Below are positions 3,633 to 47,028 of a stretch of 64,000 bases of DNA, one piece after another. The DNA comes from Hypericibacter adhaerens (GTDB taxonomy: Bacteria; Pseudomonadota; Alphaproteobacteria; Dongiales; Dongiaceae), in contig NZ_CP042582.1 in assembly GCF_008728835.1 (NCBI RefSeq), positions 4,757,001 to 4,821,000 on the forward strand, given 5' to 3'. Numbering within the stretch: the first letter of the stretch is position 1; each line of letters begins with the position of its first letter. The translations under genes were made by a program, and so were the position numbers. Under the pieces are notes generated by a model. It saw nothing but the letters and a program-made list of their open reading frames with translations, searched no databases and was not told where the DNA came from.

Positions 3633-5501
3633 ATGGCCCAGAACGAGAGCGCAGTCGAGGCCTTCCGGCGCGTGACCGCCGCCGCGATGCGCGCGATCGC
3701 GCACAAGACCGAGCTCAACGTGACCTTCGCGCCCGGCCAGCACGGGCTCGCGGGCAACGAGGCACGCCTGCCTTTGCCGGCGCGCGACCTGCCCAAGACC
3801 GAGGTCGCCCAGGTCCGCGGCGAGGCCGACGCGATCGCGCTCAAGCTCAGGCTCCACAACGCCGAAACCCACCGCCGCGAAGCGCCCCGCACCGAGATGG
3901 GGCGCCAGATCTTCGACGCGGTCGAGCAGGCCCGCGTCGAGGCGGTCGGATCGCGCCACATGTCGGGCGTCACCGACAACCTGGCGGCGGCGCTCGACGA
4001 GCATTGCCGGCAGCGCGGCTATGCGCGCGTGACCGAGCGCGAGCAGGCGCCGCTCTCCGAGGTGCTGCGGCTCCTGGCGCGCGAGGCGATGACCGGCCAA
4101 GCAGTGCCCAAGGCCGCCAAGCGCATCGTCGATCTCTGGAAGCCGGTGCTGGGCGACAAGGTGCTGGGCGATCTGACACGGATGGCCGATGCCGCCGACG
4201 ATCAGCGCGCCTATGCCAAGGCGACGCGCCAGATGCTGTCCGATCTCGATGTGGATCTGGGGCCGGAGGACGCGCAGCCCGAGGATTCCGAGGAAAACGA
4301 CCAGGACGACCAGAACGACGATACCGACCAGACCAAGGGCGAAGGCGGCGAGCAGCAGAAATCCGAAGCGGCCGCGATGGAGACCGAGGCCGGCGATCGC
4401 GGCCAGGACGATGCCGAGGCGCAGGAGACCGAGACCTCCTCCGACGAGATGGCCGATGCCGAGGAGGAGGCGCCGGGCCGCCCCGGCCGGCCGCCGCAGT
4501 CCGATCTCTCGAACCGCAGCAACGAGCCCACCTACAAGGCCTATTGCACCGATTACGACGAGATCGTCGAGGCGGCCGACCTCTGCGATCCCGACGAGCT
4601 CGGGCGCCTGCGCCAGCTGCTCGATCAGCAGCTCCAGCATCTCCAGGCCGTCGTCGGCAAGCTCGCCAACCGGCTGCAGCGCCGCCTGATGGCGCAGCAG
4701 TCGCGCTCCTGGGAGTTCGATCTCGAGGAAGGCCTGCTGGACAGTGCGAAACTGAGCCGCGTCGTGGTCAACCCGGTCCTGCCGCTCTCCTACAAGCGCG
4801 AGAAGGACATGGAGTTCCGCGACACGGTGGTGTCGCTCCTCATCGACAATTCGGGCTCGATGCGCGGCCGGCCGATCACGGTCGCGGCCATGAGCGCCGA
4901 CATCCTGGCACGCACGCTCGAGCGCTGCGGCGTCAAGGTCGAGGTGCTGGGCTTCACCACCCGCATGTGGAAGGGCGGCCAGTCGCGCGAGCGCTGGCTC
5001 GCCGGCGGCAAGCCCGCCAATCCGGGCCGGCTCAACGACCTGCGCCACATCATCTACAAGAGCGCCGACGCGCCCTGGCGGCGCGCGCGCAAGAGCCTCG
5101 GCCTCATGCTGCGCGAGGGCATCCTCAAGGAGAACATCGACGGCGAAGCCCTGCTCTGGGCCCATGAGCGGCTGCTGGCGCGCCCCGAGCAGCGCCGCAT
5201 CCTGATGGTGATCTCGGACGGCGCGCCGGTCGACGATTCCACCCTCTCCGTCAATCCGGGCAACTATCTCGAGCGCCATCTGCGCGAGGTGATCGACTGG
5301 ATCGAGACGCGCTCGCCGGTCGAGCTGGTCGCCATCGGCATCGGCCATGACGTCACGCGCTATTACCGGCGCGCCGTCACCATCGTCGATGCCGAGCAGC
5401 TCGGCGGCACGATGATGGAGAAGCTGGCCGAGCTGTTCGACGAGGCCCAGGCGCAGCCGAAGAATCAGCGCGGCCGCACGCGCCGCACCGCCCTCCATTG
5501 A
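3633..5501 (+). CDS. cobT: cobaltochelatase subunit CobT
   Basis: A 622-residue partner of CobS in cobalt insertion. The N-terminal part (1-200) is a CobT-specific helical domain. A strongly acidic linker rich in Asp, Glu and Gln spans about 210-290. The C-terminal half is a von Willebrand A domain with the metal-ion site DNSGS at about 404-408, which ligates Mg2+ and docks onto the AAA ring. The large subunit cobN is not in this window, so the chelatase must be completed from elsewhere. Its stop codon overlaps the possible start of the following esterase gene. Confidence 0.96.
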
Positions 5502-12257: not shown

Positions 12258-15200
12258 TCAATGCGGCGCGCTGCGGCCGATCGAGCGCGACAGAACTAGG
12301 TAAAGCTTGCCTACATCGGCGGTGATGAAGGCGGCGTTAAGCACGCTTTCCGGATCGGCTTCCTGCGCCTGCGCCAGCAACTCCTCGAACCGCTCCATGT
12401 AACGCTCGACCATGTCGCGGAAGCGGTCGTCATCCTTGTAGCGCTGCTCGATGGCGGGCACCAGATAGCTGTCCTTCCCGCGGAACAGGCGGCGCGCGAA
12501 GATCGAACGGTCGCCCTTGTGGTAGTCCTTCCACACATCGGCCGGCACGTCGGTCTCGAGCAGCTTGCTGATATCCATGGCGAGCGAGTTGAGCTCCTCG
12601 ACCATCACCGCCGCCGCGCGCAGGAAGAGATCGCGGGTGACGTTCTCCTGCACGCGCTTCAGGTTCTGGACCTGCGTCTCGGCGGCGCTGGTGGAGCGCG
12701 CCAGCTGCTGGCTCTGCTGGTCGAAGCGCTGCGCCAGCTCGCCCACCTGGCCGCCGATGCGCTCGACCGTCTCGGTCAGGAACTGGGCCCGCTCGCCGAA
12801 GGTGGCGCCGATCTCGTTGGTGCGGCGCACTACATAGTCGGTGGCTTCCACCAGCTTCTCGGTGCGGCCGTCGAGCGTGCCGCCCGCCTTGTCGAGCCGC
12901 TCGGCCACCTGGTCGCCGAGCTGGGTCAGGAGCTGGATCTGGCTCTCGAGCTCGCCCTTGATCGCCGCGGTGTCGGCCCGGGCGCCGGCCGCGACCGAGG
13001 CGAAGCTTTCCGACTGGCCGCGCAGGCTGTCGCGGATCATGTCGACGAGCTGGCCCACCTGGGTCGAGAGCTGGCCCAGCTCGGTGAGCTGGTCCTTCAC
13101 CACGCCGCGCACCGCCGCCACCTGCATCGCCGCGCGCCGCGCCATGCCGACCAGCCGCTCGGTGTCGCCGCGGAAGGTCTCGGCGATGGCGCGCGAGTTG
13201 CGCGAGGCCTCCTCGGCGGCATTGACGAGATCGGCCTTGAGCGTGCCGACGATGCGCTCGAGCTCGCCGATGCGCACGGCGCTGACGCCCGTGGTCTCGC
13301 CCAGCGCATCCGACAGCTTCCCGATCGCCTCGCGCGCCTGCTGCTGCGCGGTGAAGGCGCCGGTCGCCACCGCCGCGAGCCGCGCCGCCTGGTCCGAGAA
13401 GAGCCGGCCGGCATTCTCGATCTTGCCGGCGCCGTCGGCCGCGGTGGCGCCGATCCGGTCGGCCTGGTCGCGGCCGGCCATGATCATGCTGTCGATCTTC
13501 TCCAGCATGGTGTCGGTGCTGCGCTTGTATTCGAGGAGCTTGGTCTCGGCCTGGCGCAGCGCTCCCTCCATGCGCTCGCCCGAGGCCGACGAGGCCTGCT
13601 CGATGCCGGTGGCCTGTTCGGCGAGCGCGCGCCGGAGCTTCTGTGCCTCCTCGGTGCTGTCGCGCCAATGCAGCCCGATGCGATCGGTTTCGCTGCCGAC
13701 CGATTCGAGCAGGCGCTGCGCCTCGGCGGAGAAGTCGGCCGCCGCCGCCGCGAGACGCCGGCGCATCTCCTCGCCCTCGCCCTGCGCGCCCACCGCGAGA
13801 TCGGCGAGCAGCGCGCCCCCCGCCTGGCGGAACTGGGCCAGCGCCGCCTCGAGCTCGCCGCGCAGCGACACCGCGTTCGCCTGGCCCTCGTTGCGCAGTG
13901 CCACGGTCGCGGCGGTGACGTCTTCCATCTGGCGCGCCAGCGAAGCGCCCAGCGCCGCCGCCTCGCCTTGGGCCGCGGCGGATTGCGCCTGCACGGCATT
14001 GGCCTGGCGCGTGAGATCCTCCGAGAGGGCCTTGGCATTGGCGGCACTCTCGGTCGCGATCGCGCGCAGATGGTCGAGCGCCTGGTCGAAGGGCCGGCGC
14101 ATCGCAGCCGCGGTGTCGTCGGCGAGCCGCCCCAGCGCCTGGCCCGCCGCGGCCGCTTCGTCGCGGGCACCCTGGCCCACCTGCTGCAGCGTCTGCGCGC
14201 TCTCGGCGGCGGTGGCGCGGAAATGCTCCAGCGTCTGATCCATCGGGCGGCGCATGGCGCTCGCCGTCTCTTCCGCGAGCCGGCTCAGCGCGGCGCCGGC
14301 GGCGATGGCCTCGTTGCGGGCCGTCTGGCCCGTCTGCTGGAGGGTCGCCGTGCTGTCGGCGGCGGTGACGCGGAAATGCTCGAGCGCCTGGTCCATCGAC
14401 CGGCGCAGGGCGTCCGCCGTCTCTTCCGCCAGCCGGCTCAGCGCACCACCTGCCGCCGTGGCTTCGTCGCGCGCCGTCCGGCCCGTCTGCTGCAAGGTCG
14501 CGGTGCTGTCGGCGGCGGTGGCGCGGAAATGCGCGAGCGCCTGCTCCATCGACTGGCGCATCGCGCTCGTGGTCTCTTCCGCGAGCCGGCTCAAGGCCGC
14601 GCCCGCCGTGGCGGCCTCGTCGCGGGCCGTCTGGCCCGTCTGCTGCAATGTCTGGGTACTGTCCGCCGCGACCGAGCGGAGATGCGCGAGCGTCTGGTCC
14701 AGAGGCTGGCGCATCGCGCTCGCCGTTTCCTCGGCAAGCCGGCTCAACGCGGCCCCGGCCGCGGCCGCCTCGTCGCGGGCGCTCTGGCCGGTCCGGGCCA
14801 GGGCCGCAGTGCGCTCCGCGAGGGTGCGCTCGAACTCGGCGCCGGCGGCACCCGCCGCGCGCACCGCCTCGCCGATCTGCGTGGTCTGCTTGTCGGCCGC
14901 CATGAGCCGCGCCTCGATATCGTCGGAGAGCCGCGTCAGGCTGTTGGTGAGATATTCGGTCGAGGCGGCGAGATCGGTCTTGAGGTTCATGGTCGCATCG
15001 TCGGCGGTGCGGCCCAGGGCCTCCATCTGCTGCTGCAGCGTGTTGACCAGCTCGCCGCCGCGCTGCGCGGTGCGGTCGCCCGCCGCCGCCAGCTCGCGCG
15101 CGAGGCGCGCCATCGCCTGCCCGAAGCGGTCGATCGCGGAATCGACCGCCTGGCCCAGCTGCTCCTCCTGCATCTTGATCTCGGCCGCCATGGAGGTGCC

Positions 15201-15857
15201 CTGCTCGAGGGCCCGCGTCACGGCGGCGTCGATCTCGTCGGTGCGCCGCTCCATCTCGCGCGCGATCTGCTCGGTGGCGGCACCCGCAGCCGAGGTGACG
15301 CTGTCGCCATGGCGCCGCACGATCTCGCCCCAATGGACGCGCTCGGCATCGAGCTTGGCCGCCACCTCGCGCGCCGAGGCGATCTCGGCCGCGAGGCCCT
15401 CGCGCAGCTTGTCGGTCTCGGCGCGGGCCTGCTGCACCACCTCGGTCAGCGCCGCCGCCTCGCTCTGGAAACGCAGCGCGAAGCCGCCCAGGAGCTCGGA
15501 GCTCTGGTCGGAAGCCGAGCGCAGCGCCTCGGCCTGCCGCTTCAGCACGGCCCCGGCCGCCTCCACGCGCGTGGCCGCCGTTTCGTCGGGAAAGGTCAGG
15601 AGGCCGAGCTGGCGGTTGATCGCGGCGCCCGCATCGGCCAGGTCGCGCCCGCGGATCCAGTAGAGAAGGAGCAGCCAGAGGAAGGCCAGCGGCGCAAACG
15701 CGCCCGCCATCGCCGCCCCCAGCTCATGGGGCAGCATGCCGCCGACATTGTTCCAGCCGATCTCGCGATCGACGTAAGTCCAGACCAGGGCCAGCCACGC
15801 GACCGTCAGCACGAGGCCGACCGCCGCGCCCAGCCACCGTCCCCCCTTCGCCGTCAT
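12258..15857 (-). CDS. giant membrane-anchored coiled-coil protein, TipN-like architecture
   Basis: A 1199-residue protein with two N-terminal membrane helices (about 8-27 and 46-66), then more than 1000 residues of Ala/Glu/Gln/Arg-rich heptad-like sequence. Residues about 355-610 hold five tandem 51-residue repeats around the core ALSRLAEETASAMR. The last ~130 residues form a distinct, less repetitive, probably helical domain (DVPADVWKDY ... FARRLFRG ... ITADVGKLYLVLSRSI). The architecture matches polarity landmarks such as Caulobacter TipN, and a TipF-like gene lies 6 kb away; this assignment is inference. It could instead be a chemoreceptor-like or cell-envelope scaffold. A GGGGAA ribosome site precedes the ATG. 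Confidence 0.75.
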   Translation of the reverse strand: MTAKGGRWLGAAVGLVLTVAWLALVWTYVDREIGWNNVGGMLPHELGAAMAGAFAPLAFLWLLLLYWIRGRDLADAGAAINRQLGLLTFPDETAATRVEAAGAVLKRQAEALRSASDQSSELLGGFALRFQSEAAALTEVVQQARAETDKLREGLAAEIASAREVAAKLDAERVHWGEIVRRHGDSVTSAAGAATEQIAREMERRTDEIDAAVTRALEQGTSMAAEIKMQEEQLGQAVDSAIDRFGQAMARLARELAAAGDRTAQRGGELVNTLQQQMEALGRTADDATMNLKTDLAASTEYLTNSLTRLSDDIEARLMAADKQTTQIGEAVRAAGAAGAEFERTLAERTAALARTGQSARDEAAAAGAALSRLAEETASAMRQPLDQTLAHLRSVAADSTQTLQQTGQTARDEAATAGAALSRLAEETTSAMRQSMEQALAHFRATAADSTATLQQTGRTARDEATAAGGALSRLAEETADALRRSMDQALEHFRVTAADSTATLQQTGQTARNEAIAAGAALSRLAEETASAMRRPMDQTLEHFRATAAESAQTLQQVGQGARDEAAAAGQALGRLADDTAAAMRRPFDQALDHLRAIATESAANAKALSEDLTRQANAVQAQSAAAQGEAAALGASLARQMEDVTAATVALRNEGQANAVSLRGELEAALAQFRQAGGALLADLAVGAQGEGEEMRRRLAAAAADFSAEAQRLLESVGSETDRIGLHWRDSTEEAQKLRRALAEQATGIEQASSASGERMEGALRQAETKLLEYKRSTDTMLEKIDSMIMAGRDQADRIGATAADGAGKIENAGRLFSDQAARLAAVATGAFTAQQQAREAIGKLSDALGETTGVSAVRIGELERIVGTLKADLVNAAEEASRNSRAIAETFRGDTERLVGMARRAAMQVAAVRGVVKDQLTELGQLSTQVGQLVDMIRDSLRGQSESFASVAAGARADTAAIKGELESQIQLLTQLGDQVAERLDKAGGTLDGRTEKLVEATDYVVRRTNEIGATFGERAQFLTETVERIGGQVGELAQRFDQQSQQLARSTSAAETQVQNLKRVQENVTRDLFLRAAAVMVEELNSLAMDISKLLETDVPADVWKDYHKGDRSIFARRLFRGKDSYLVPAIEQRYKDDDRFRDMVERYMERFEELLAQAQEADPESVLNAAFITADVGKLYLVLSRSIGRSAPH
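14030..14800 (-). repeat. five tandem 153-bp in-frame repeats within the coiled-coil gene
   Basis: Five consecutive units of 153 bp (51 codons) lie inside the long coiled-coil gene. Each encodes a variant of TGQTARDEAATAGAALSRL followed by AEET-SAMR and a QALxHFRATAADS stretch. The central copies are nearly identical while the last one (nearest 14030) has diverged, which suggests recent expansion by unequal recombination. 51 residues is not a multiple of 7, so the heptad register is likely to shift or the segment is an 11-residue-type coil. Confidence 0.9.
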
Positions 15858-35151: not shown

Positions 35152-35336
35152 AATCCCCTCCCCCGCTCTGCGGGGGAGGGTGAGGGAGGGGGAGGGGGCT
35201 GCTCACGGTTGCCGCATCGCCTTGCTTTGAAAAGCTCGATTACAGGCAATCTGTGAGGAAGGAAGGGGGCAACGGCGCTTGGTTCAAACACCGAGCGGCC
35301 CCCTCCCTGCCGTCCCCCGCGAGGGGGGAGGGGATT
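35152..35336. repeat. C/G-tract palindromic repeat pair
   Basis: Two oppositely oriented copies (aatcccctcccccgctctgc ... and ... cgcgaggggggaggggatt) enclose about 100 bp between the lysS start and the helicase start. Same family as at 28959 and 46800. Confidence 0.8.
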
Positions 35337-35341
35337 AATAA

Positions 35342-38206
35342 ATGAAGCCGCCGCCTCGGCCCTCTATACTGCCCACCCATCCCGGATTCCCCCACGGCAT
35401 GACCGGATCGATCTCGAGCACGCTTCCGCCGCCCCATTCCGCTTTGCGCCTTCCCGATGCGCCGGCCCTGGTCGTGGGCCATGCGCAGGCCGCGATCGCG
35501 AGCCCCGAGGGCGAAGTGCGGCTGGTTGATCTGCCGAAGGCGGCGGCCTTGTTGCGCGAGCGGCCGGCGATCCTGGTCCATGCGCCCGTCACGCTGCGCC
35601 GGCTGGGGCTCGAGGCCTTGCCGGCCTTCGATCTGCTGGAGCTCTTCGCCTTCGTGCGGCCGGCGCGGTTCTGCCTGCCCACGCCGCGCGGCCTCGCCCG
35701 TGCGCTCGACCTGCCGGTGCCGGCCGATCTCGAATCCGAGGCGGGGCTGCTGTTCCGGATCGCGCTGGAACTGCTGGCCGAGCTGGAGGAGGCCTCGGGC
35801 CTGCGGCCGCCGCAGCTGCGCCGCCGCCGGTCCATCGCGGCCGCCATGGCGGCCGGCGGCTGGCGCTGGGGGCCGGCGGCGATGGAGGCGATCGAAGGCG
35901 TCTCGCCGGGGGGCGTGTCTTCGCCCGGCGATGTCGCGTCGATCCACCCGGCGAGTGCGCGCGCGCAGAGCGCGCTCGCGGTGTGGGAGGATCTGCCGGA
36001 ATGGTCCGAGCATGCGCCCGAGCCGCCGCCGGGCCATCTGCCGGTCGAGCCCAACGAGGCGCGCCAGCGGCTGGCGCAGCTCCTGGGCGAGGGCGCCGAG
36101 GCGCGGCCGCAGCAGGCCGACTATGCGTCGGCCGTCACGGCCGCCTTCGCCCCGCGCGAGCGCCAGGGCGAGCCGCGCTTCGTGCTGGCGGAGGCCGGCA
36201 CCGGCGTGGGCAAAACGCTGGGCTATATCGCGCCCGCGAGCCTCTGGGCCGAGAAGAACGACGGCACGGTCTGGATCAGCACCTATACCCGCAATCTGCA
36301 GCACCAGATCGACGGCGAGCTCGACCGGCTCTATCCCGACCCGGCCGAGAAGGCGCTCAAGGTGGTGGTGCGCAAGGGGCGCGAGAACTATCTCTGCCTG
36401 CTCAATCTGGAAGAAGCGGTGCGCGGCCTGCCCACCCGGCCGCAGGATATCGTGTCGCTGGGGCTGATGGCGCGCTTCGCCGAGGCCACGCGCGACGGCG
36501 ACCTGGTGGGCGGCGATTTCCCGGGCTGGCTTTCCGATCTGATCGGCCGCGGGCGGTCGCTCGGCCTCGCCGACCGGCGCGGCGAATGCGTCTATTCCGC
36601 CTGCCCGCATTATCACCGCTGCTATATCGAGCGCTCGATCCGCCGCGCGCGCCGCGCCGACATCGTGATCGCCAACCATGCGCTGGTGATGATCCAGGCA
36701 GCGATCGGACCCGAGGAGCGCTCGCTCCCGCTGCGCTATGTGTTCGACGAGGGCCATCATCTGTTCGATGCTGCGGACGGCACCTTCGCCAGCCATCTGA
36801 GCGGCTTCGAGACGGCGGAGCTGCGGCGCTGGATCTTGGGCGCGGAAGGCCGCGGACGCAGCCGCGCGCGGGGGCTGAAGCGGCGCATCGAGGACCTGGT
36901 CGCGGGCGACAACGAGGCGCTGGAGGCGCTGGAGGCCGCCCTCGAGGCCGCCTCGAGCCTGCCCGGCGAAGGCTGGCACCAGCGCCTGGCCGAGAAGCCG
37001 CGGGGTGCCACCGAGGCCTTCCTCGCCAAGGTCCGCCAGCAGGTCTATGCGCGCGATCCCGACGCCACCAACCCCTACAGCCTCGAGACCGACGTGCTGC
37101 CGATGGTGGAGGGCCTGCAGGAAGCGGGCGCCACGCTGGCCCGCGCGCTGGGCACGCTCGAATTGCCGCTGAAGACGCTGATGGCGCGGCTGGCGGCGAG
37201 GCTCGACGAGGAGGCCGAGGGGCTCGACACGGCGACGCGGCTCAGGATCGAGGCCATGATCCGCGCGCTCAAGCGGCGCGGCACGATGGAGACCGCGGGC
37301 TGGCGCCAGATGCTGGAGGGGCTGGGCAGCCCCTGCCCGCCCGAGTTCGTCGAATGGTTCGGGGTCGAGCGCATCGACGGGCGCGACCTCGATGTCGGCA
37401 TGTATCGCCACTGGCTCGACCCGATGGTGCCGTTCGCGCAGGCCGTGGCCGAGCCGGCGCAGGGGCTGCTCGTCACCTCGGCGACGCTGACCGACGGCAG
37501 CGGCGATATCGAGGCCGACTGGCGCGCGGCCGAGGCGCGCTCGGGCGCGGTGCATCTGCCGATGCCCGCGATCCGCGCGCGCGTGCCCTCGCCCTTCGAC
37601 TATGCCAACCAGACGCGGCTCTTCGTCGTGACCGACGTGCGCAAGGACGATCTGGGGCTGGTGGCCTCGGCCTATCGCGAGCTGATCCTGGCCGCGGGCG
37701 GCGGCGCGCTCGGGCTCTTCACCGCGATCCAGCGCCTGCGCGAGGTCTATCGCCGCCTGGCGCCGGCGCTCGAGCGCCAGGGGCTGCAGCTCCTGGCGCA
37801 GCATGTCGACCCGCTCGACACGGCGACGCTGGTCGACATCTTCCGCGCCGAGGAGAACGCGTCGCTGCTGGGCACCGACGCCGTGCGCGACGGCGTCGAC
37901 GTGCCCGGCCGCTCGCTGCGGCTGGTGGTGTTCGACCGCGTGCCCTGGGCCCGGCCCGACATCCTCCACCGCGCGCGACGCAAGGCGATGGGCGGGAAGG
38001 ACTATGACGACCGGCTGGTGCGGCTGCGGCTCAAGCAGGCCTTCGGACGGCTCATCCGAAGGGCCGACGATCACGGGGTGTTCGTGCTGCTCGATCCGAT
38101 GATGCCGTCACGGCTCAAAGGCGCGTTTCCCGAGGGCGTGGAGCTGAAGCGGGTGGGGCTGGCGGAGGCGGTGGCAGAGACACGGGGGTTTTTGAGTCTC
38201 AGATGA
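35342..38206 (+). CDS. ATP-dependent DNA helicase, DinG/XPD (Rad3) family
   Basis: A 954-residue superfamily 2 helicase. Walker A is AGTGVGKT (about 285-292), the DEAH-box reads DEGHH (about 465), and four cysteines for a [4Fe-4S] cluster lie at YLCLLN and in CVYSACPHYHRC, as in XPD/DinG. The C-terminal helicase domain ends with DRLVRLRLKQAFGRLIRR. An N-terminal region of 200 residues precedes the motor. The start may be the ATG at 35399 (MTGSISS) instead. The last ~200 bp are repeated at 43107-43332, on the other side of the defence island, which marks this gene's 3' end as the insertion point. Confidence 0.92.
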   Translation: MKPPPRPSILPTHPGFPHGMTGSISSTLPPPHSALRLPDAPALVVGHAQAAIASPEGEVRLVDLPKAAALLRERPAILVHAPVTLRRLGLEALPAFDLLELFAFVRPARFCLPTPRGLARALDLPVPADLESEAGLLFRIALELLAELEEASGLRPPQLRRRRSIAAAMAAGGWRWGPAAMEAIEGVSPGGVSSPGDVASIHPASARAQSALAVWEDLPEWSEHAPEPPPGHLPVEPNEARQRLAQLLGEGAEARPQQADYASAVTAAFAPRERQGEPRFVLAEAGTGVGKTLGYIAPASLWAEKNDGTVWISTYTRNLQHQIDGELDRLYPDPAEKALKVVVRKGRENYLCLLNLEEAVRGLPTRPQDIVSLGLMARFAEATRDGDLVGGDFPGWLSDLIGRGRSLGLADRRGECVYSACPHYHRCYIERSIRRARRADIVIANHALVMIQAAIGPEERSLPLRYVFDEGHHLFDAADGTFASHLSGFETAELRRWILGAEGRGRSRARGLKRRIEDLVAGDNEALEALEAALEAASSLPGEGWHQRLAEKPRGATEAFLAKVRQQVYARDPDATNPYSLETDVLPMVEGLQEAGATLARALGTLELPLKTLMARLAARLDEEAEGLDTATRLRIEAMIRALKRRGTMETAGWRQMLEGLGSPCPPEFVEWFGVERIDGRDLDVGMYRHWLDPMVPFAQAVAEPAQGLLVTSATLTDGSGDIEADWRAAEARSGAVHLPMPAIRARVPSPFDYANQTRLFVVTDVRKDDLGLVASAYRELILAAGGGALGLFTAIQRLREVYRRLAPALERQGLQLLAQHVDPLDTATLVDIFRAEENASLLGTDAVRDGVDVPGRSLRLVVFDRVPWARPDILHRARRKAMGGKDYDDRLVRLRLKQAFGRLIRRADDHGVFVLLDPMMPSRLKGAFPEGVELKRVGLAEAVAETRGFLSLR
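37975..38200 (+). repeat. left direct repeat: 3' end of helicase gene
   Basis: This segment, from cgacgcaaggcg to the stop region, matches 43107-43332 in the same orientation. The shared stretch includes aaggactatgacgacc, atccgatgatgccgtc and cggctcaaaggcgcgtt. The encoded peptides agree at 49 of 58 residues by my count. It is the intact copy. Confidence 0.88.
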
Positions 38207-38291
38207 ACCGCGTTAATTTACAGCGCACGCAACTATATGAAACTTATCCCGTATCCACCATTCAAGATCAAACTAGTTGCGTCCAGGTCAG

Positions 38292-40064
38292 TCAGCATAC
38301 ACCAACACCGCTCGCCTTCTTCAAGAAGCGAGAGGGACCGTTACGACTGTTTGAGCTATCAGTGATGTAAAGCAGATACTCTTTGGCGCGCGTAACTCCA
38401 ACGTAAAATAGCCGTTTTGCTTCGTCTATTTCACCTGCACTTGTCGCACGATAATGCGGAATACGGCCTTCGTTTAGGTCCATAATTGCTACGGCGCGAA
38501 ACTCTCGTCCCTTGGCGTTGTGAAGAGATGACAACTTCAGTGCCGAGCCAGGACTGGCGTAGATCCCAAGATCTTCAATCGCCAAGTTCGCAAGATCCAC
38601 ATCGTTGTTACGCATATCGGCTTTCATCTCTTCAACTGCCATCATGAACAAGTCGCGCTCGGCGGGCGCCAAGTAGCCTGCCTCAATTAGTATTTTAGAG
38701 AATTCGCGCGCGGCTGATTCCAGCCAAAGTACGGCCCCTTCGTGCTTCTCATAAAGGGACTGGGCGCACCCCAGCAGCCGAAAAACAACCGCTCTACCGG
38801 CGTAGGAATAAACTTCAAAATGAACGCGTCCGGTCGCGCTAAGGATGGTATGGAAAAGACTGCGCTCAATGGCGCCCAGCGATTGGGGATTAAGCTCCAT
38901 CATGTATCCGCAGACCTGTTCGGCGAGTGGCGCAAAGACTCGGTTTCGACGGTATGGGCGAGCACCCGGCCCAACAATTGACACGCCATATTCTCGGAGA
39001 CGTCGGCCCAGCGGGAACAGGGAATACCATGTTGGCGCGAGGATTGCCGCATCGCCAATAGGAATGCTGCGCCCTTCGAGTGCAGGAAGAAAGAAATCGA
39101 TGATCACGTTAAAGGCCGACGCGCTACTTTTCCATACCGGCTGGATTGTAACATTACGTGTTGGCCCCACCGCGGTCATCGGCGGTGTACGTGGGTAGAG
39201 TAGGTTGGCGTGCGCGACGATGGGTTTGCTACAACGAAAATTGCCTGTCAGCTGTTTATCAGAACGCGCGTGAATCCGCTTAGCGAATACATCTGCTAGA
39301 TCAGGCCGAGCGCCAGCGAAACCAAAGACAGATTGGTAGGGGTCGCCGACAAGCAGGAAGCGCGTCTGTCCCGCCTGCGCGACAAGAGTCAGAATCTCAA
39401 CCTGGATATCTGTAGTGTCTTGAAATTCATCAACCAGAATCCAGGCGAACTTAGCGGAAATGTAACTGAGAATTTCTGTGCGTCTCTGCAGTAGCAGGTA
39501 GGAGTAATACAGTATGTTAGCGAAATCGACTAAGCCTGCCTCGCGCACCCGTTTCCAATACTCTCGTGCCATTTCGGGGGTCAACGCGCCCCGCGTGAGT
39601 GCCGGGCCCACCGCGCTACCGTCTATTCCAACCCGTAACTGCGAGAACTCGTCAAAGTCTTGAAAGTTCAAACGATCTCGCCCGAACTGAGCACATGTTG
39701 CTTTGACGAGTTCTTCAAAGTCGGCGCTATCTGGTGTTAGCACCCGAAAACCATCCTTATATCCCCGAATGAGGTGGCAGAAGGGCCGGAAGATGTGGTG
39801 CAAACAAAAAGAGTGAATAGTGCATATGTCATAGTGCGCATCGTCACCCGGCTGGATATGGTGCAGAAGTCGGGCTTCGATTTCGTGGACAGCAGCATTC
39901 GTGTAGGTAATGCATGCAACAGCGCGCGGGGTGTCGCGCACGTCCTCCACCACGCGCGACAGTTTGGAGACAATGACGCGCGTCTTGCCGCTACCCGGAC
40001 ACGCGGTCAGCATAAGATTCTCGTCGCAACGAGAAGCGTCTAGTTGTTCGGCGGTAAGCTTCAT
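38292..40064 (-). CDS. gajB: UvrD/Rep-like helicase, GajB of a Gabija-type system
   Basis: A 590-residue superfamily 1A helicase. Visible motifs: Q-motif and Walker A (ACPGSGKT, about 22-29), motif Ia ITYTNAA, Walker B VDEFQD (about 210), motif III GDPYQSVFGFAGA, motif IV-like NFRCS, motif V LSSLHNAKGREFRAV and motif VI RLFYVGVTRAKEYL. It overlaps the OLD-family gene upstream by 4 nt, the tight pairing seen in Gabija (GajA-GajB) and in class 2 OLD/helicase operons. In Gabija the complex cuts phage DNA when nucleotides are depleted. Assignment is from pairing plus motifs. Confidence 0.87.
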   Translation of the reverse strand: MKLTAEQLDASRCDENLMLTACPGSGKTRVIVSKLSRVVEDVRDTPRAVACITYTNAAVHEIEARLLHHIQPGDDAHYDICTIHSFCLHHIFRPFCHLIRGYKDGFRVLTPDSADFEELVKATCAQFGRDRLNFQDFDEFSQLRVGIDGSAVGPALTRGALTPEMAREYWKRVREAGLVDFANILYYSYLLLQRRTEILSYISAKFAWILVDEFQDTTDIQVEILTLVAQAGQTRFLLVGDPYQSVFGFAGARPDLADVFAKRIHARSDKQLTGNFRCSKPIVAHANLLYPRTPPMTAVGPTRNVTIQPVWKSSASAFNVIIDFFLPALEGRSIPIGDAAILAPTWYSLFPLGRRLREYGVSIVGPGARPYRRNRVFAPLAEQVCGYMMELNPQSLGAIERSLFHTILSATGRVHFEVYSYAGRAVVFRLLGCAQSLYEKHEGAVLWLESAAREFSKILIEAGYLAPAERDLFMMAVEEMKADMRNNDVDLANLAIEDLGIYASPGSALKLSSLHNAKGREFRAVAIMDLNEGRIPHYRATSAGEIDEAKRLFYVGVTRAKEYLLYITDSSNSRNGPSRFLKKASGVGVC

Positions 40065-41878
40065 TCCTCAGTTAGCCAGTCAATCGCGTCAGATAAGTAC
40101 TGCGGAATAGATGTTGCCTGCTCAACGTGTCGCGCCGCAAGTTGTGCAAAGCGCGCCTTCCCGAACCGCTTGGCTGTATTTAACACTGCGTCACGAAGCG
40201 GATTGAGAATCTTCAACTCATTCTTCTCGTCTTTACCTTCGGCTTCGAGTTTTCCTAAGGCATCTCGAAGACGCTTCGCAACCAGGGGAGCGCCAACATC
40301 GTCCGCAGCGCGGGCAAACATTTCGAGCGTTCCCTTAAACAACAAGGCGCGCTCGAATGTTGTCTTGCACGCAAAGACGCGCACGTAGTCATTTTGCAAT
40401 ACTTTCAAGTTTGGTGGTGGTGGCAGATCATCTTCTGCTTCGGCGTCACTGTGAGCATCGCTGGGCCTGAGATCCCCATCAGTGACGATCGCGCACTTTT
40501 TCGGAAGGGCACCTTTGGAGAAGAGCTTCGAATACGTGTCAAAGTGCACTCCGTAGATAGGGATGACAGAAATACCCAAGCGATCTAAGTCGACACCCTC
40601 TACCTTCTTTATGATTGCGGGAATGAGGAACAACTCAGCGGGACCTTCAACGAGCATGACCTTCCTAGCAAACAGAAGATTAGAACGTGTGGCGTCAAGG
40701 TAGCGCTCCAAATCTGCGACTTCGTTAGCCGCGAGACCGGCATCCACGACTGGCATGGATGAAGCGATGGCTGGTGAACCCACATGCGAGAGCACGACGT
40801 AGGATTTGAGCGGCGCGTTTGCCGTAATGTGTGTGCTATGCGTCGTCAGTACGGATTGGAAAGGCAGGGCGCTCAGTGCCTTGAACAGCGTGATTTGTAA
40901 TTGCGGATGTAGGTGGGCTTCTGGTTCCTCGAAAAGAATAATTTGCCCCGCTGATTTCTGCTGAGCTAGTCGCTTGTGGAAGTACTCAATCAGAATGGAG
41001 ACATAGAGAATATTGTTGAGTCCAAGACCATTTGACGAAGGGTCAAAATTCTGCATGGCCACGTTTGACAGGAGAATACGCAGCGCGCGGACCACCGCTT
41101 GAAACGACGGCTCTGCCAACCCCAACGCCACATCCATGCTGAACGCCGGCCCTGCTACCGTTTTGAACGATTTGTCAATAGCCTTTGCAATTTTACCTAT
41201 GGTATCTGCCCCGGCAATCTCAGCATTTGCTGTACGAAGTGCTTCCAACAGCGCCTCCTGCTCGGCTGGCGCAATCTCCATTGCATCGATCAGACGGGCC
41301 AACGGCGAAGAGCGATATTGGCGTAAGTCGCTTTCGACATCACGGAGCGCTGGGAGGAATACAACTAGAAACGATTGAAGGTCCGAAAATCGAATGGACT
41401 GTCCAAAATCTTGATCCCAAGTCACGTCGGCGAGGTCATGGGAAGGATCGCCGCCTCCTGTGATCTCCCAATGATAGTCGTCGCGAGTGAGTTCGCCGGG
41501 CTCTATCTCACCGGTTTCTAAATCCTCGCGCACTTTTAGTTTCGGGCGATACCGATATGCAAGACGCGCCAACTTCGGCTTACTCTGCCAAGCACCAACG
41601 AGTGCTTCTTCGTTCGTCTTACCGGCAAAACCTGTGATCTCGAGGCCAATCAAAACCTGAGTCGGATGCGAGATGTCTACGCCCGAATGGACGTCATTGG
41701 GTGCAAGCGATCGGAACGCAGAAGACAACCCGGCATCAATACAAAGTCGTATTGCGTGCAGAAAGTTGGATTTGCCAGTGTTATTCTCGCCGACAATGCA
41801 AGTTGTCCCAGCAGCTAGCTGAACATCCAAATGCTCGAATGAGCGAAAATTCCTAATGACAACACGAGCTATCTGCAC
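40061..41878 (-). CDS. gajA: OLD-family ATPase/TOPRIM nuclease, GajA of a Gabija-type system
   Basis: A 605-residue protein with an ABC-type ATPase head (Walker A GENNTGKSN at about 31-39; Walker B and D-loop region ILFEEPEAHLHPQ at about 313-325; switch TTHS) and a C-terminal TOPRIM nuclease (LVEGPAELFLIPAI at about 410-423; VTDGDLRPSD at about 465). This order and length match GajA (about 580 residues). It precedes gajB with an ATGA overlap. A palindrome TGCAGGG-AAAT-CCCTGCA lies 36 bp upstream of the start. The acidic residues of the TOPRIM site appear intact. Confidence 0.88.
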   Translation of the reverse strand: MQIARVVIRNFRSFEHLDVQLAAGTTCIVGENNTGKSNFLHAIRLCIDAGLSSAFRSLAPNDVHSGVDISHPTQVLIGLEITGFAGKTNEEALVGAWQSKPKLARLAYRYRPKLKVREDLETGEIEPGELTRDDYHWEITGGGDPSHDLADVTWDQDFGQSIRFSDLQSFLVVFLPALRDVESDLRQYRSSPLARLIDAMEIAPAEQEALLEALRTANAEIAGADTIGKIAKAIDKSFKTVAGPAFSMDVALGLAEPSFQAVVRALRILLSNVAMQNFDPSSNGLGLNNILYVSILIEYFHKRLAQQKSAGQIILFEEPEAHLHPQLQITLFKALSALPFQSVLTTHSTHITANAPLKSYVVLSHVGSPAIASSMPVVDAGLAANEVADLERYLDATRSNLLFARKVMLVEGPAELFLIPAIIKKVEGVDLDRLGISVIPIYGVHFDTYSKLFSKGALPKKCAIVTDGDLRPSDAHSDAEAEDDLPPPPNLKVLQNDYVRVFACKTTFERALLFKGTLEMFARAADDVGAPLVAKRLRDALGKLEAEGKDEKNELKILNPLRDAVLNTAKRFGKARFAQLAARHVEQATSIPQYLSDAIDWLTEE

Positions 41879-41913
41879 AGCAACCCCTCAATCGCCCTAT
41901 CTTCCGTCGTACG

Positions 41914-41931
41914 TGCAGGGAAATCCCTGCA
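41914..41931. promoter_or_regulatory. perfect palindrome upstream of gajA
   Basis: TGCAGGG-AAAT-CCCTGCA, a 7-bp perfect arm pair with a 4-nt spacer, centred about 45 bp before the gajA start. It is a candidate operator or leader hairpin for the defence operon; no T-tract follows. The region 41879-42080 holds no credible gene. Confidence 0.45.
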
Positions 41932-42080
41932 GAAAATTGAAATTGAGGAAGCACTCTCCAACGACGCAACGCACAAACGAAGAGGCACGACAAATCGAGT
42001 AGGCCCCCATAATCAGCACGAGAGGTTGTTCGAACTGTCAATTCATTTTCTTAATTTTTGAGTGTTTCGGCAATGGATCA

Positions 42081-42770
42081 CTATGGAGGAGGCACGTTGG
42101 GCCAACGTTGCACAATTTCGTGGCATGCTTCCTCAATGTGCTGCCTCCTTCGCTTATAACTTTTGGGCGGCTCAAACATTGTAGCCGTCGGAACATCAAC
42201 GGCATGGCACAGCCGAAGGTCTGGCTTGCCCATTTTCGATAGATGACATTCACAATGCCAATGGATGAGAACCGACAGGTACTCCGCTGAAGCAGCGTTA
42301 AGGGGGTGAGTTTTGGGAAAGCTGAATTTAATACCTCCGACCACTTTAGTGCCCTTCTGCGTGGTTCCCTGCAATACGACCTGAGGCAGAACACTTACAT
42401 CTACACCATTGATCGGAATCGGCATGCTCTGCTGCATTGCCCCAAGTGACTTTTTAAATTTTTCGAAGCTGAGTTGGTTTGAAAGGAGCTTGAAGGACTT
42501 GAGAGCTGCGATGCATAGATCTCTGTTCTGAATCTTGAACTCAGTGTCTGGATTCTCTGCAGCGAGTCTCGCTATGTGTTCATCAATAATCTTGAGATCA
42601 GATTGCCCCTGAGCAACGAACAGCGCGACTGGGCGCTCTGCTTTCCTCCAGCGAACCATTGCGACTTCTTGAGGATACTTTTGCTCCTGAATGATTGATC
42701 GCTTGCGCGCGAACGACGCAGACATATACTCCGCAAGCTTAGTCGCAGTAATACGAGGATCGGTGCGCAT
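42081..42770 (-). CDS. unknown island protein, helical N-terminal domain
   Basis: A 229-residue soluble protein that I do not recognise with certainty. Its N-terminus (ITATKLAEYMSASFARKRS, then IIQEQKYPQEVAMVRWRKAE) resembles a domain of unknown function often seen beside defence genes; this is from memory and not proven. The C-terminal half includes HWHCECHLSKMG, a possible metal-binding cluster. The ATG at 42770 has the strong ribosome site AGGGGGAG 5 nt upstream, preferred over a methionine at 42803. Its start codon overlaps the start codon of the plus-strand neighbour. Confidence 0.65.
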   Translation of the reverse strand: MRTDPRITATKLAEYMSASFARKRSIIQEQKYPQEVAMVRWRKAERPVALFVAQGQSDLKIIDEHIARLAAENPDTEFKIQNRDLCIAALKSFKLLSNQLSFEKFKKSLGAMQQSMPIPINGVDVSVLPQVVLQGTTQKGTKVVGGIKFSFPKTHPLNAASAEYLSVLIHWHCECHLSKMGKPDLRLCHAVDVPTATMFEPPKSYKRRRQHIEEACHEIVQRWPNVPPP

Positions 42771-42783
42771 GGCTACTCCCCCT
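42755..42783. promoter_or_regulatory. overlapping divergent start codons with back-to-back ribosome sites
   Basis: CATG at 42768-42771 gives ATG on both strands. The plus-strand site GAGG is at 42755-42758; the minus-strand site AGGGGGAG covers 42776-42783 within codons 3-5 of the plus-strand gene. Each ribosome site is therefore inside the opposite reading frame. Confidence 0.6.
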
Positions 42784-43074
42784 AAAGTCGTAGACAGTGA
42801 CAATGAACGCTACTTTAGCGGGAAAGCATCTGACGGAACACTGGTTTACGTTGGCCCCGTAACGCAAGAACAGCTGCGCGATGCTAAAGTATCCGGTAAG
42901 TCCACCGGCTATTATCTTTGCGAATTCGATGCGGAGGATCCTTCATCTAGCCTCAACATATTGGCATCGTTCGTATCGCCGGAGGCCGCTTACCGGTTTG
43001 CCGAAGTGCTGGGGTTGTTTGATATGGATCGCCCCATATCGGCCTTTGAAGAAGCATTGAACCTTAGCGACTAG
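42769..43074 (+). CDS. unknown acidic 101-residue island protein
   Basis: A 101-residue acidic protein without recognised domain, predicted mixed alpha/beta (LVYVGPVTQEQL, YYLCEFDAED, SPEAAYRFAEVLGLFD). A GAGG ribosome site lies 10 nt upstream of the ATG. Its start codon and that of the minus-strand neighbour overlap in the same CATG, so both mRNAs must begin inside the other gene. Size and acidity could suit an antitoxin or a regulatory partner, but there is no direct evidence. Confidence 0.6.
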   Translation: MATPPKVVDSDNERYFSGKASDGTLVYVGPVTQEQLRDAKVSGKSTGYYLCEFDAEDPSSSLNILASFVSPEAAYRFAEVLGLFDMDRPISAFEEALNLSD

Positions 43075-43106
43075 CCATAGGCCCGGCCCTACATCCCTCC
43101 AACGCA

Positions 43107-43332
43107 CCCGGCGCAAGGCGCATGGCCAGACGGGGCAAGGACTATGACGACCGACTTGTGCAGCTCTGGCTCAAACAGGCCTTCGGGCGGCTGATCAGCC
43201 GCGCCGACGATCACGGCATGTTCGTGCTGCTTAATCCGATGATGCCGTCGCGGCTCAAAGGCGCGTTCCCGGCGGGCGTCGAACTCAAGCGCATGGGACC
43301 GGCGGGGTAGAGACGAAGGCGTTTCTCGCCGG
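43107..43332 (+). pseudogene. right direct repeat: truncated second copy of helicase 3' end
   Basis: A remnant of the helicase C-terminus starting at ggcgcaaggcg and reading KDYDDRLVQLWLKQAFGRL, then RADDHGMFVLLNPMMPSRL and GAFPAGVELKRMG before an early stop at 43308-43310. Homology to the left copy continues past this stop (tagagacgaaggcgtttct against cagagacacgggggttttt), so a deletion near the end has shifted the frame. The motor part is absent, so it cannot make a working protein. It is likely the displaced original end of the gene or of an ortholog. Confidence 0.85.
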
Positions 43333-43420
43333 GGCGTGAACTCATCCGCACGATCCTGGAACGGCGTGCCGGATGGCTTGGGATATGAACGATCGCCCGC
43401 CGCAAGCGGCGGCATTTCCG

Positions 43421-44335
43421 CTACGCGGCCGATGCGTCCATCTGGATGCGATCCCGGCCCTGGGACTTGGCGGCGTAAAGCAGCCCGTCGGCACGCTTCA
43501 GGATCGCGGCCGGATCTTCCGTGCCCGGATTGCCGTCTGGGCCCGGATTGGCGCGGGTCAGGCCGATGCTCACGGTGAAGGAGATCTTCGCCCCGTCGAT
43601 GTCGACTTCCGTGCCTCTGATGGCCCGAAGCAGCCGGTCGCAGGCCACCCTGGCGCCCCGGACATCCGTCTCCGGAAAGAGGGCCGCGAACTCCTCGCCG
43701 CCCAGGCGCCCCGTCCTGTCGACGGCGCGCAGCTGGCGATCGAAGTGGCGGGCCAGGACGCTCAGCACCCTGTCCCCGGCCTCGTGGCCGTAGGTGTCGT
43801 TGACGCGCTTGAAGCGATCCACATCGATCATCGCCACGGACAGCGGCCGCCCGTAGCGGCGGCTGCGGGCCCATTCGATGTCCAGGCTCTCGAGGAAGTG
43901 GCGCCGGTTCGACAGGCCGGTGAGCGCGTCCGTGTTGGCCTGGGCCTGGAGCGCTTCATAGGCCTGCGTCAGCTCGCGGGTGCTGACCATGCCGACGAGC
44001 CTGTCGCCCTCCAGGACCGGAAGATGACGGATATGGTTTGCCGTCATCAGGGACAGCATGTCGGCGACGCCCTGATGGCCCGAGCAGGTGATGACGGATC
44101 GCGTCATCACGTCGCTGACGGGCCTGTCGGCCACGCCGCCGCCGTATCTGGCGATGGCCCGGGCCAGATCGCGCTCCGAGACGATGCCGACGAGCTTGCC
44201 GCCGTCGTCGGTGACGACCAGGGCGCCCACATTGTGGGACGCCATCCTGCCGGCCGCTTCCCGAAGGGAATCCTCCGGCCGGACGCCCTTCGCGTCCGCC
44301 CCCGCCCTCCCCGCAAGCAGGTCGCGAATCAGCAT
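43421..44335 (-). CDS. diguanylate cyclase with tandem CBS domains
   Basis: A 304-residue cytoplasmic protein. Two CBS domains cover about 1-125 (GALVVTDDGGKLVGIVSERDL and HLPVLEGDRLVGMVSTREL are their cores), followed by a GGDEF domain (about 130-300). The active site reads GGEEF and the inhibitory I-site RAVD sits five residues before it, so c-di-GMP synthesis with product inhibition is expected. CBS pairs usually sense adenine nucleotides. No membrane or receiver domain is present. The start MLIRDLL is clear. Confidence 0.92.
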   Translation of the reverse strand: MLIRDLLAGRAGADAKGVRPEDSLREAAGRMASHNVGALVVTDDGGKLVGIVSERDLARAIARYGGGVADRPVSDVMTRSVITCSGHQGVADMLSLMTANHIRHLPVLEGDRLVGMVSTRELTQAYEALQAQANTDALTGLSNRRHFLESLDIEWARSRRYGRPLSVAMIDVDRFKRVNDTYGHEAGDRVLSVLARHFDRQLRAVDRTGRLGGEEFAALFPETDVRGARVACDRLLRAIRGTEVDIDGAKISFTVSIGLTRANPGPDGNPGTEDPAAILKRADGLLYAAKSQGRDRIQMDASAA

Positions 44336-46799: not shown

Positions 46800-47028
46800 A
46801 ATCCCCTCCCCTTGGTGCTTTCTTCACCTCCCCCTTGAGGGGGAGGCTGGGGTGGGGGGTGAGTCACACACTCATTGTCGGCGCGGATGACGCGATCGAG
46901 TGCTCTTGCAGCACCACGTTCTACGATCACCCCCCACCCTAACCTCCCCCTCAAGGGGGGAGGGGATTCACTTGCCGCACCGAGCAGCCCCCTCCCTGCC
47001 CTCCCCCAATAGAAGGGGGAGGGGATTA
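46800..47028. repeat. cluster of C/G-tract palindromic repeats
   Basis: At least three copies of the aatcccctcccc...gggggagg element fill the gap between convergent genes, two of them as an inverted pair with the variant cctcccccttgagggggagg. No gene is visible. Confidence 0.85.

Follow-up and report, generated by a model that had tools for sequence, protein, structure and literature searches.

In the alphaproteobacterium Hypericibacter adhaerens, a complete pair of Gabija defence genes lies between the intact end of a DinG/YoaA-like DNA helicase gene and a second, truncated copy of that same end. On balance, the cassette was probably acquired horizontally and entered between the helicase gene and the next gene downstream through a recombination event that had its anchor in helicase sequence, with an illegitimate junction on the far side. 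The analysis covered a stretch of 64,000 nt, referred to here as the window, from the 5.87-Mb chromosome (GCF_008728835.1, NZ_CP042582.1, positions 4,757,001-4,821,000), and the features that matter for the argument are collected in Table 1.

Table 1. Features of the helicase-Gabija region, in window coordinates.
Feature	Coordinates	Strand	Evidence or remark
DinG/YoaA-like superfamily-2 DNA helicase gene, intact, 954 aa	35342..38206	+	PF13307 1.4e-22
Left repeat copy, functional helicase 3' end	37942..38165	+	BLASTN and ungapped/gapped alignment
gajB, UvrD-like helicase, 590 aa	38292..40064	-	PADLOC GajB PDLC00130 3.5e-270; PF00580; Walker A GSGKT and DEFQD
gajA, OLD-family ATPase with TOPRIM nuclease domain, 605 aa	40061..41878	-	PADLOC GajA PDLC00092 1.1e-289; AAA_15 PF13175 and OLD-like TOPRIM PF20469
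Orphan ORF, 240 aa	42081..42803	-	no credible family
Orphan ORF, 127 aa, or shorter from ATG 42769	42691..43074	+	no matches
Right repeat copy, 5'-truncated, frameshifted helicase 3'-end remnant	43074..43338	+	BLASTN and alignments
CBS-GGDEF diguanylate cyclase gene, right edge of variable region	43421..44335	-	common to same-genus genome G001

The events that would produce this arrangement can be set out in a few steps. The incoming DNA, a linear fragment or an excised circle for which we infer a closely related strain as the donor, would have carried the cargo downstream of a helicase 3' end. A crossover would have taken place inside the homologous helicase sequence, and the far side would have been closed by an illegitimate join, either in the resident helicase end or at the joint of the circle. 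This would leave the helicase gene intact and, after it, the cargo and a 5'-truncated helicase-end remnant that later decays. The signature of homology-facilitated illegitimate recombination is present, with an intact helicase on the left and variable truncation points on the right, and from it we infer the crossover itself.

The helicase was matched by the YoaA model NF053712 at 1.4e-74, which is under that model's cut-off, and orthologues are present in 29 of 41 relatives. It is the last ~225-260 nt of the gene that are repeated. BLASTN aligned 37942-38165 with 43074-43305 in the same orientation over 232 columns (81.0% identity, E ~1e-55); the ungapped core is 195 nt long at 81% identity, and gapped alignment carries the recognisable homology of the right copy to ~43338. 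The first-pass annotation had reported the same-orientation repeat, with the left copy intact and the right one truncated and diverged, and was correct in this apart from coordinates that were off by up to about 35 nt. The right copy has suffered a 7-nt insertion, a 1-nt insertion and a 7-nt deletion, and what can be translated from it is 74% identical to helicase residues 868-941. Only two matches to the helicase end exist in the whole 5.87-Mb genome, namely the left and right copies themselves, which leaves no better-matching paralog, and an origin of the right copy from another helicase paralog was ruled out.

The interval between the copies spans 4.9 kb and has a GC content of 51.9%, compared with 68.6% in the remaining window. 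It had been described at first sight as a lower-GC Gabija-type cassette, and both parts of that description are borne out, by these figures and by the PADLOC matches. GajA carries the motifs GENNTGKS, EEPEAH, VEGPAE and DGD, and both proteins had matches in the PDB (3.5e-16 for GajA and 1.8e-17 for GajB). As in known Gabija systems, both genes are intact, stand in the canonical gajA-gajB order on one strand with a 4-nt overlap, and retain their nucleotide-binding and TOPRIM motifs. The pair is thus, by its sequence, intact and complete, and homology predicts an anti-phage role. The two genes themselves do not differ from the known systems; the difference lies in the two orphan ORFs, for which the two closest plasmid-borne Gabija loci inspected have no annotated counterpart alongside. 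These ORFs, next to gajA, overlap on opposite strands and are essentially without library relatives: searches of Pfam, PADLOC, NCBIfam and PHROGs gave the longer one no credible family, and its single plasmid match was partial, at 36%. The 127-aa ORF stops exactly where the right copy begins, its stop codon falling on this right junction, and is possibly a gene that was cut there. As for the source of the Gabija genes, no near relative was found among viral contigs, and the plasmid relatives are at most 54% identical over their full length.

The cassette was compared with the sole other genome of the genus (G001) and with the family. In G001, a single helicase end and the CBS-GGDEF gene are separated by 1.1 kb containing a flavin-reductase gene, with synteny to its locus L111 restarting at window position 43407, and neither Gabija genes nor a second helicase-end copy are present. 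No full-length GajA was found in the other 16 family genomes, where the best match was partial and ~32% identical. The island and its two copies are not a trait of all close relatives, and a gain in the H. adhaerens lineage is supported, Gabija being missing from G001 and throughout the rest of the family. To the left of the helicase, lysK is retained in several relatives, and the right-hand neighbours differ between genera. The intergenic DNA of G001 does not align beside the right copy, which may or may not lie in its native flank.

The same kind of scar is present in two more lineages. A DNA-level search of the 96 relatives whose sequence continues for 600 nt or more beyond the helicase yielded one extra case, Azospirillum cavernae, and a protein search took in 387 genomes of the class, 225 of them with the helicase tail. 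A nearby second copy was found in three of these 225 tail-bearing alphaproteobacteria: the window, A. cavernae and G159. In A. cavernae (L040), the helicase stop is followed by a low-GC stretch and then by another, frameshifted helicase end (89% over 194 nt), which within its family is seen in A. cavernae itself and in no other of the 82 genomes. The stretch holds a single 182-aa orphan gene (12988-13536, ~37% GC) for which no family was found, and which is a candidate for cargo of an unrecognised family. In G159 (L223), the repeat (90% over 210 nt) extends ~70 nt past the stop into terminator-like sequence, and a ParD antitoxin gene lies between the copies. Directly after the right remnant there is a low-GC ORF of 421 aa without a known family (3765-5030), possibly a second, older cargo. 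In the sister genome G485, this ParD gene comes after one helicase end, and a second tail is missing from the remaining ~0.5 kb of the contig; such a layout is plausible as a donor-type arrangement. In another sister, G239, PDC-M07A/B stands behind the orthologous helicase (PADLOC 1e-195 and 1.6e-66) and synteny restarts at an AEC transporter gene after it; the locus (L241, 621-2623) comprises the complete PDC-M07A/B defence candidate and a 53-aa ORF. Two further candidates, G061 and G112, were rejected as scars, their second matches being other DinG-type genes on other contigs. As a control, the lysK tail had more than one match in 6 of 317 genomes, wherever the second match lies.

The distribution of differences over codon positions bears on where the second end came from. 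Of the 17 coding sites that distinguish the two G159 copies, 14 are third positions (p = 5e-5). Such a bias means that the right copy diverged inside a working gene and that the two ends are two alleles, as a self-duplicated non-coding tail cannot yield it; at the level of sequence, it is thereby demonstrated that the import in G159 brought its own helicase end. The window copies differ at 18, 12 and 30 sites over codon positions 1, 2 and 3 (third positions, 30 of 60). Changes private to the left copy fall 2/2/8 and those private to the right copy 14/8/16, with third positions making up 16 of 38 (p = 0.16). The right copy appears to have decayed unconstrained, as non-coding DNA, for most of the time since the copies split. 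A. cavernae is an intermediate case, with p = 0.12 for a third-position excess among right-private changes. The left end of the window helicase has a third-position identity to G001 of 0.78-0.88, not below the value for the remainder of the gene, and no mosaic break is apparent; if this end came with the cargo, then the donor would have been a close relative. The first-pass annotation had proposed that the donor DNA brought its own helicase end and had read the divergence of the copies as the mark of a foreign donor. The former holds in G159 and is plausible yet unprovable in the window, where the even spread of right-copy changes and the absence of a mosaic break against G001 leave an allelic donor undemonstrated. 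The latter does not stand in the window, given the same even spread and a left end that is no more diverged from G001 than the rest of the gene.

Because the right copy in the window decayed mostly as non-coding DNA, an imported end and a local duplication cannot be separated there. The helicase end might have been copied in tandem through replication slippage or end-joining, with cargo entering between the copies or at the same time, and the spare end decaying afterwards. The lack of a significant third-position enrichment among right-private changes in both the window and A. cavernae is in keeping with such a course, as are the 16 sites shared by left and right copies in the window, versus 10 shared by the right copy and G001. 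It is nevertheless excluded in G159 by the codon positions, it does not account for the precise placing of low-GC foreign cargo between the two ends in the window and in A. cavernae, and no convincing truncated gene-end duplication of the same kind was found elsewhere in 1.53 Mb of these related loci. A local self-duplication is thus considered unlikely as the origin of the window repeat, and import anchored in the helicase remains the preferred account.

It had also been argued at first pass that the repeat is too long and too diverged for an att site. Length and divergence alone do not exclude one, as phage 21 and e14 integrate in the 3' end of a protein gene, icd, supplying a new end and leaving a long diverged repeat. 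The resemblance is close, in that a gene end of a few hundred nt is directly repeated with a functional left copy and a right remnant, but the helicase scars have neither integrase nor shared crossover core, and their cargo amounts to one to four genes. An att site is made unlikely instead by the missing integrase and the three different junctions: the right copy begins 261 nt ahead of the stop in the window, 195 nt in A. cavernae and 141 nt in G159, and no identical core is shared at these junctions. No integrase was found in the cassette or the window, the nearest in this genome being ~43 kb off, nor within 10 kb of the helicase in ~100 relatives; the one in A. cavernae is 10.5 kb away, in a prophage beyond the core genes sdhCDAB. 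No tRNA or Rfam element lies near the cassette. Site-specific integration was rejected on these grounds, and the differing junction points, together with the missing integrase, speak against one site-specific enzyme. An older event could be imagined, in which an integrase-borne element targeted the helicase 3' end, carried a replacement end and later lost its integrase and the rest by deletion. The expected geometry would be just what is seen, an intact gene with an element-borne end, cargo and a truncated native end, and, like typical att sites, the helicase end varies little in DNA sequence from one relative to another. For such a remnant, however, the three scars would have to start at different gene positions without a common core, none of the ~100 relatives has an integrase close to the helicase, and the cargo is down to one gene in places, so that this history is given even less credence than a local duplication.

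The cargo on the 3' side of the helicase varies, with Gabija in the window, a flavin reductase in G001, PDC-M07 in G239, ParD in G159 and G485, and an orphan gene in A. cavernae. The suggestion of the first reading that this gene end is a hot spot for defence genes gains from this variety and from the scar in two more lineages, but not from the wider survey. Among 134 ORFs downstream of the helicase in 53 relatives, PADLOC gave only two weak matches, one viperin-like and the other mad2-like, and at 81 loci there was no low-GC excess downstream compared with upstream (p = 0.67). A class-wide defence hot spot was ruled out by these two tests, and the idea holds only as sporadic recurrent insertion at a low scar rate (3/225). 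The rarity of defence genes and the lack of low-GC enrichment would also fit a coincidence of unrelated events at a generic permissive site, with repeated tails as chance survivors of larger rearrangements, but the independent occurrence of three such scars behind one gene renders this highly improbable. Beyond the single insertion in the window, the helicase 3' end could be a recurrent integrase-free docking site, at which a helicase piece serves as the homology arm of the cargo, defence or toxin-antitoxin genes are added, a functional helicase is always restored and insertions might even stack; this broader proposal is a tentative and rather doubtful one.

Helicase-anchored recombination has counterparts among described systems. 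Homology-facilitated illegitimate recombination has been shown in E. coli conjugation (PMC3240628), and was proposed, and noted as rare, for Vibrio T6SS effector-immunity arrays and for Rhs loci with displaced 3' ends (PMC5361080). Those arrays share with the helicase scars one conserved anchor side, adjacent cargo, old 3' ends displaced downstream as orphan fragments and the lack of a site-specific recombinase (PMC5361080). Their anchor, however, is a toxin gene whose 3' end varies, whereas here it is a conserved DNA-repair helicase that keeps its function and is unrelated to the cargo. The core defence hot spots cDHS1 and cDHS2 of Pseudomonas aeruginosa lie between conserved genes and are occupied in most isolates (PMC10250203). 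There too, the defence genes between a given pair of core flanks vary among related strains, whether or not mobile genes can be recognised, but the helicase site is sparsely occupied by defence genes, in few genomes, and its scar reveals the entry route.

How defence genes enter chromosomes without an integrase or transposase is an open question, and a scar that retains both gene ends is a record of the route. These cases suggest that gene ends can anchor the import of defence and other cargo without an integrase. The codon-position test separates imported from self-duplicated gene ends, and genome scans for truncated ends behind intact genes would quantify integrase-free acquisition and could flag new defence cargo.

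Two other features of the window may be mentioned. A gene for a coiled-coil-like protein of 1199 aa (12258-15857, minus strand) contains ~4.7 tandem units of 153 nt (51 aa), 79% alike, at 14075-14793. A GC-rich, palindrome-like intergenic element of ~45 nt recurs, at 35292-35336, just before the helicase start, and at 46924-46968 and 46981-47025.
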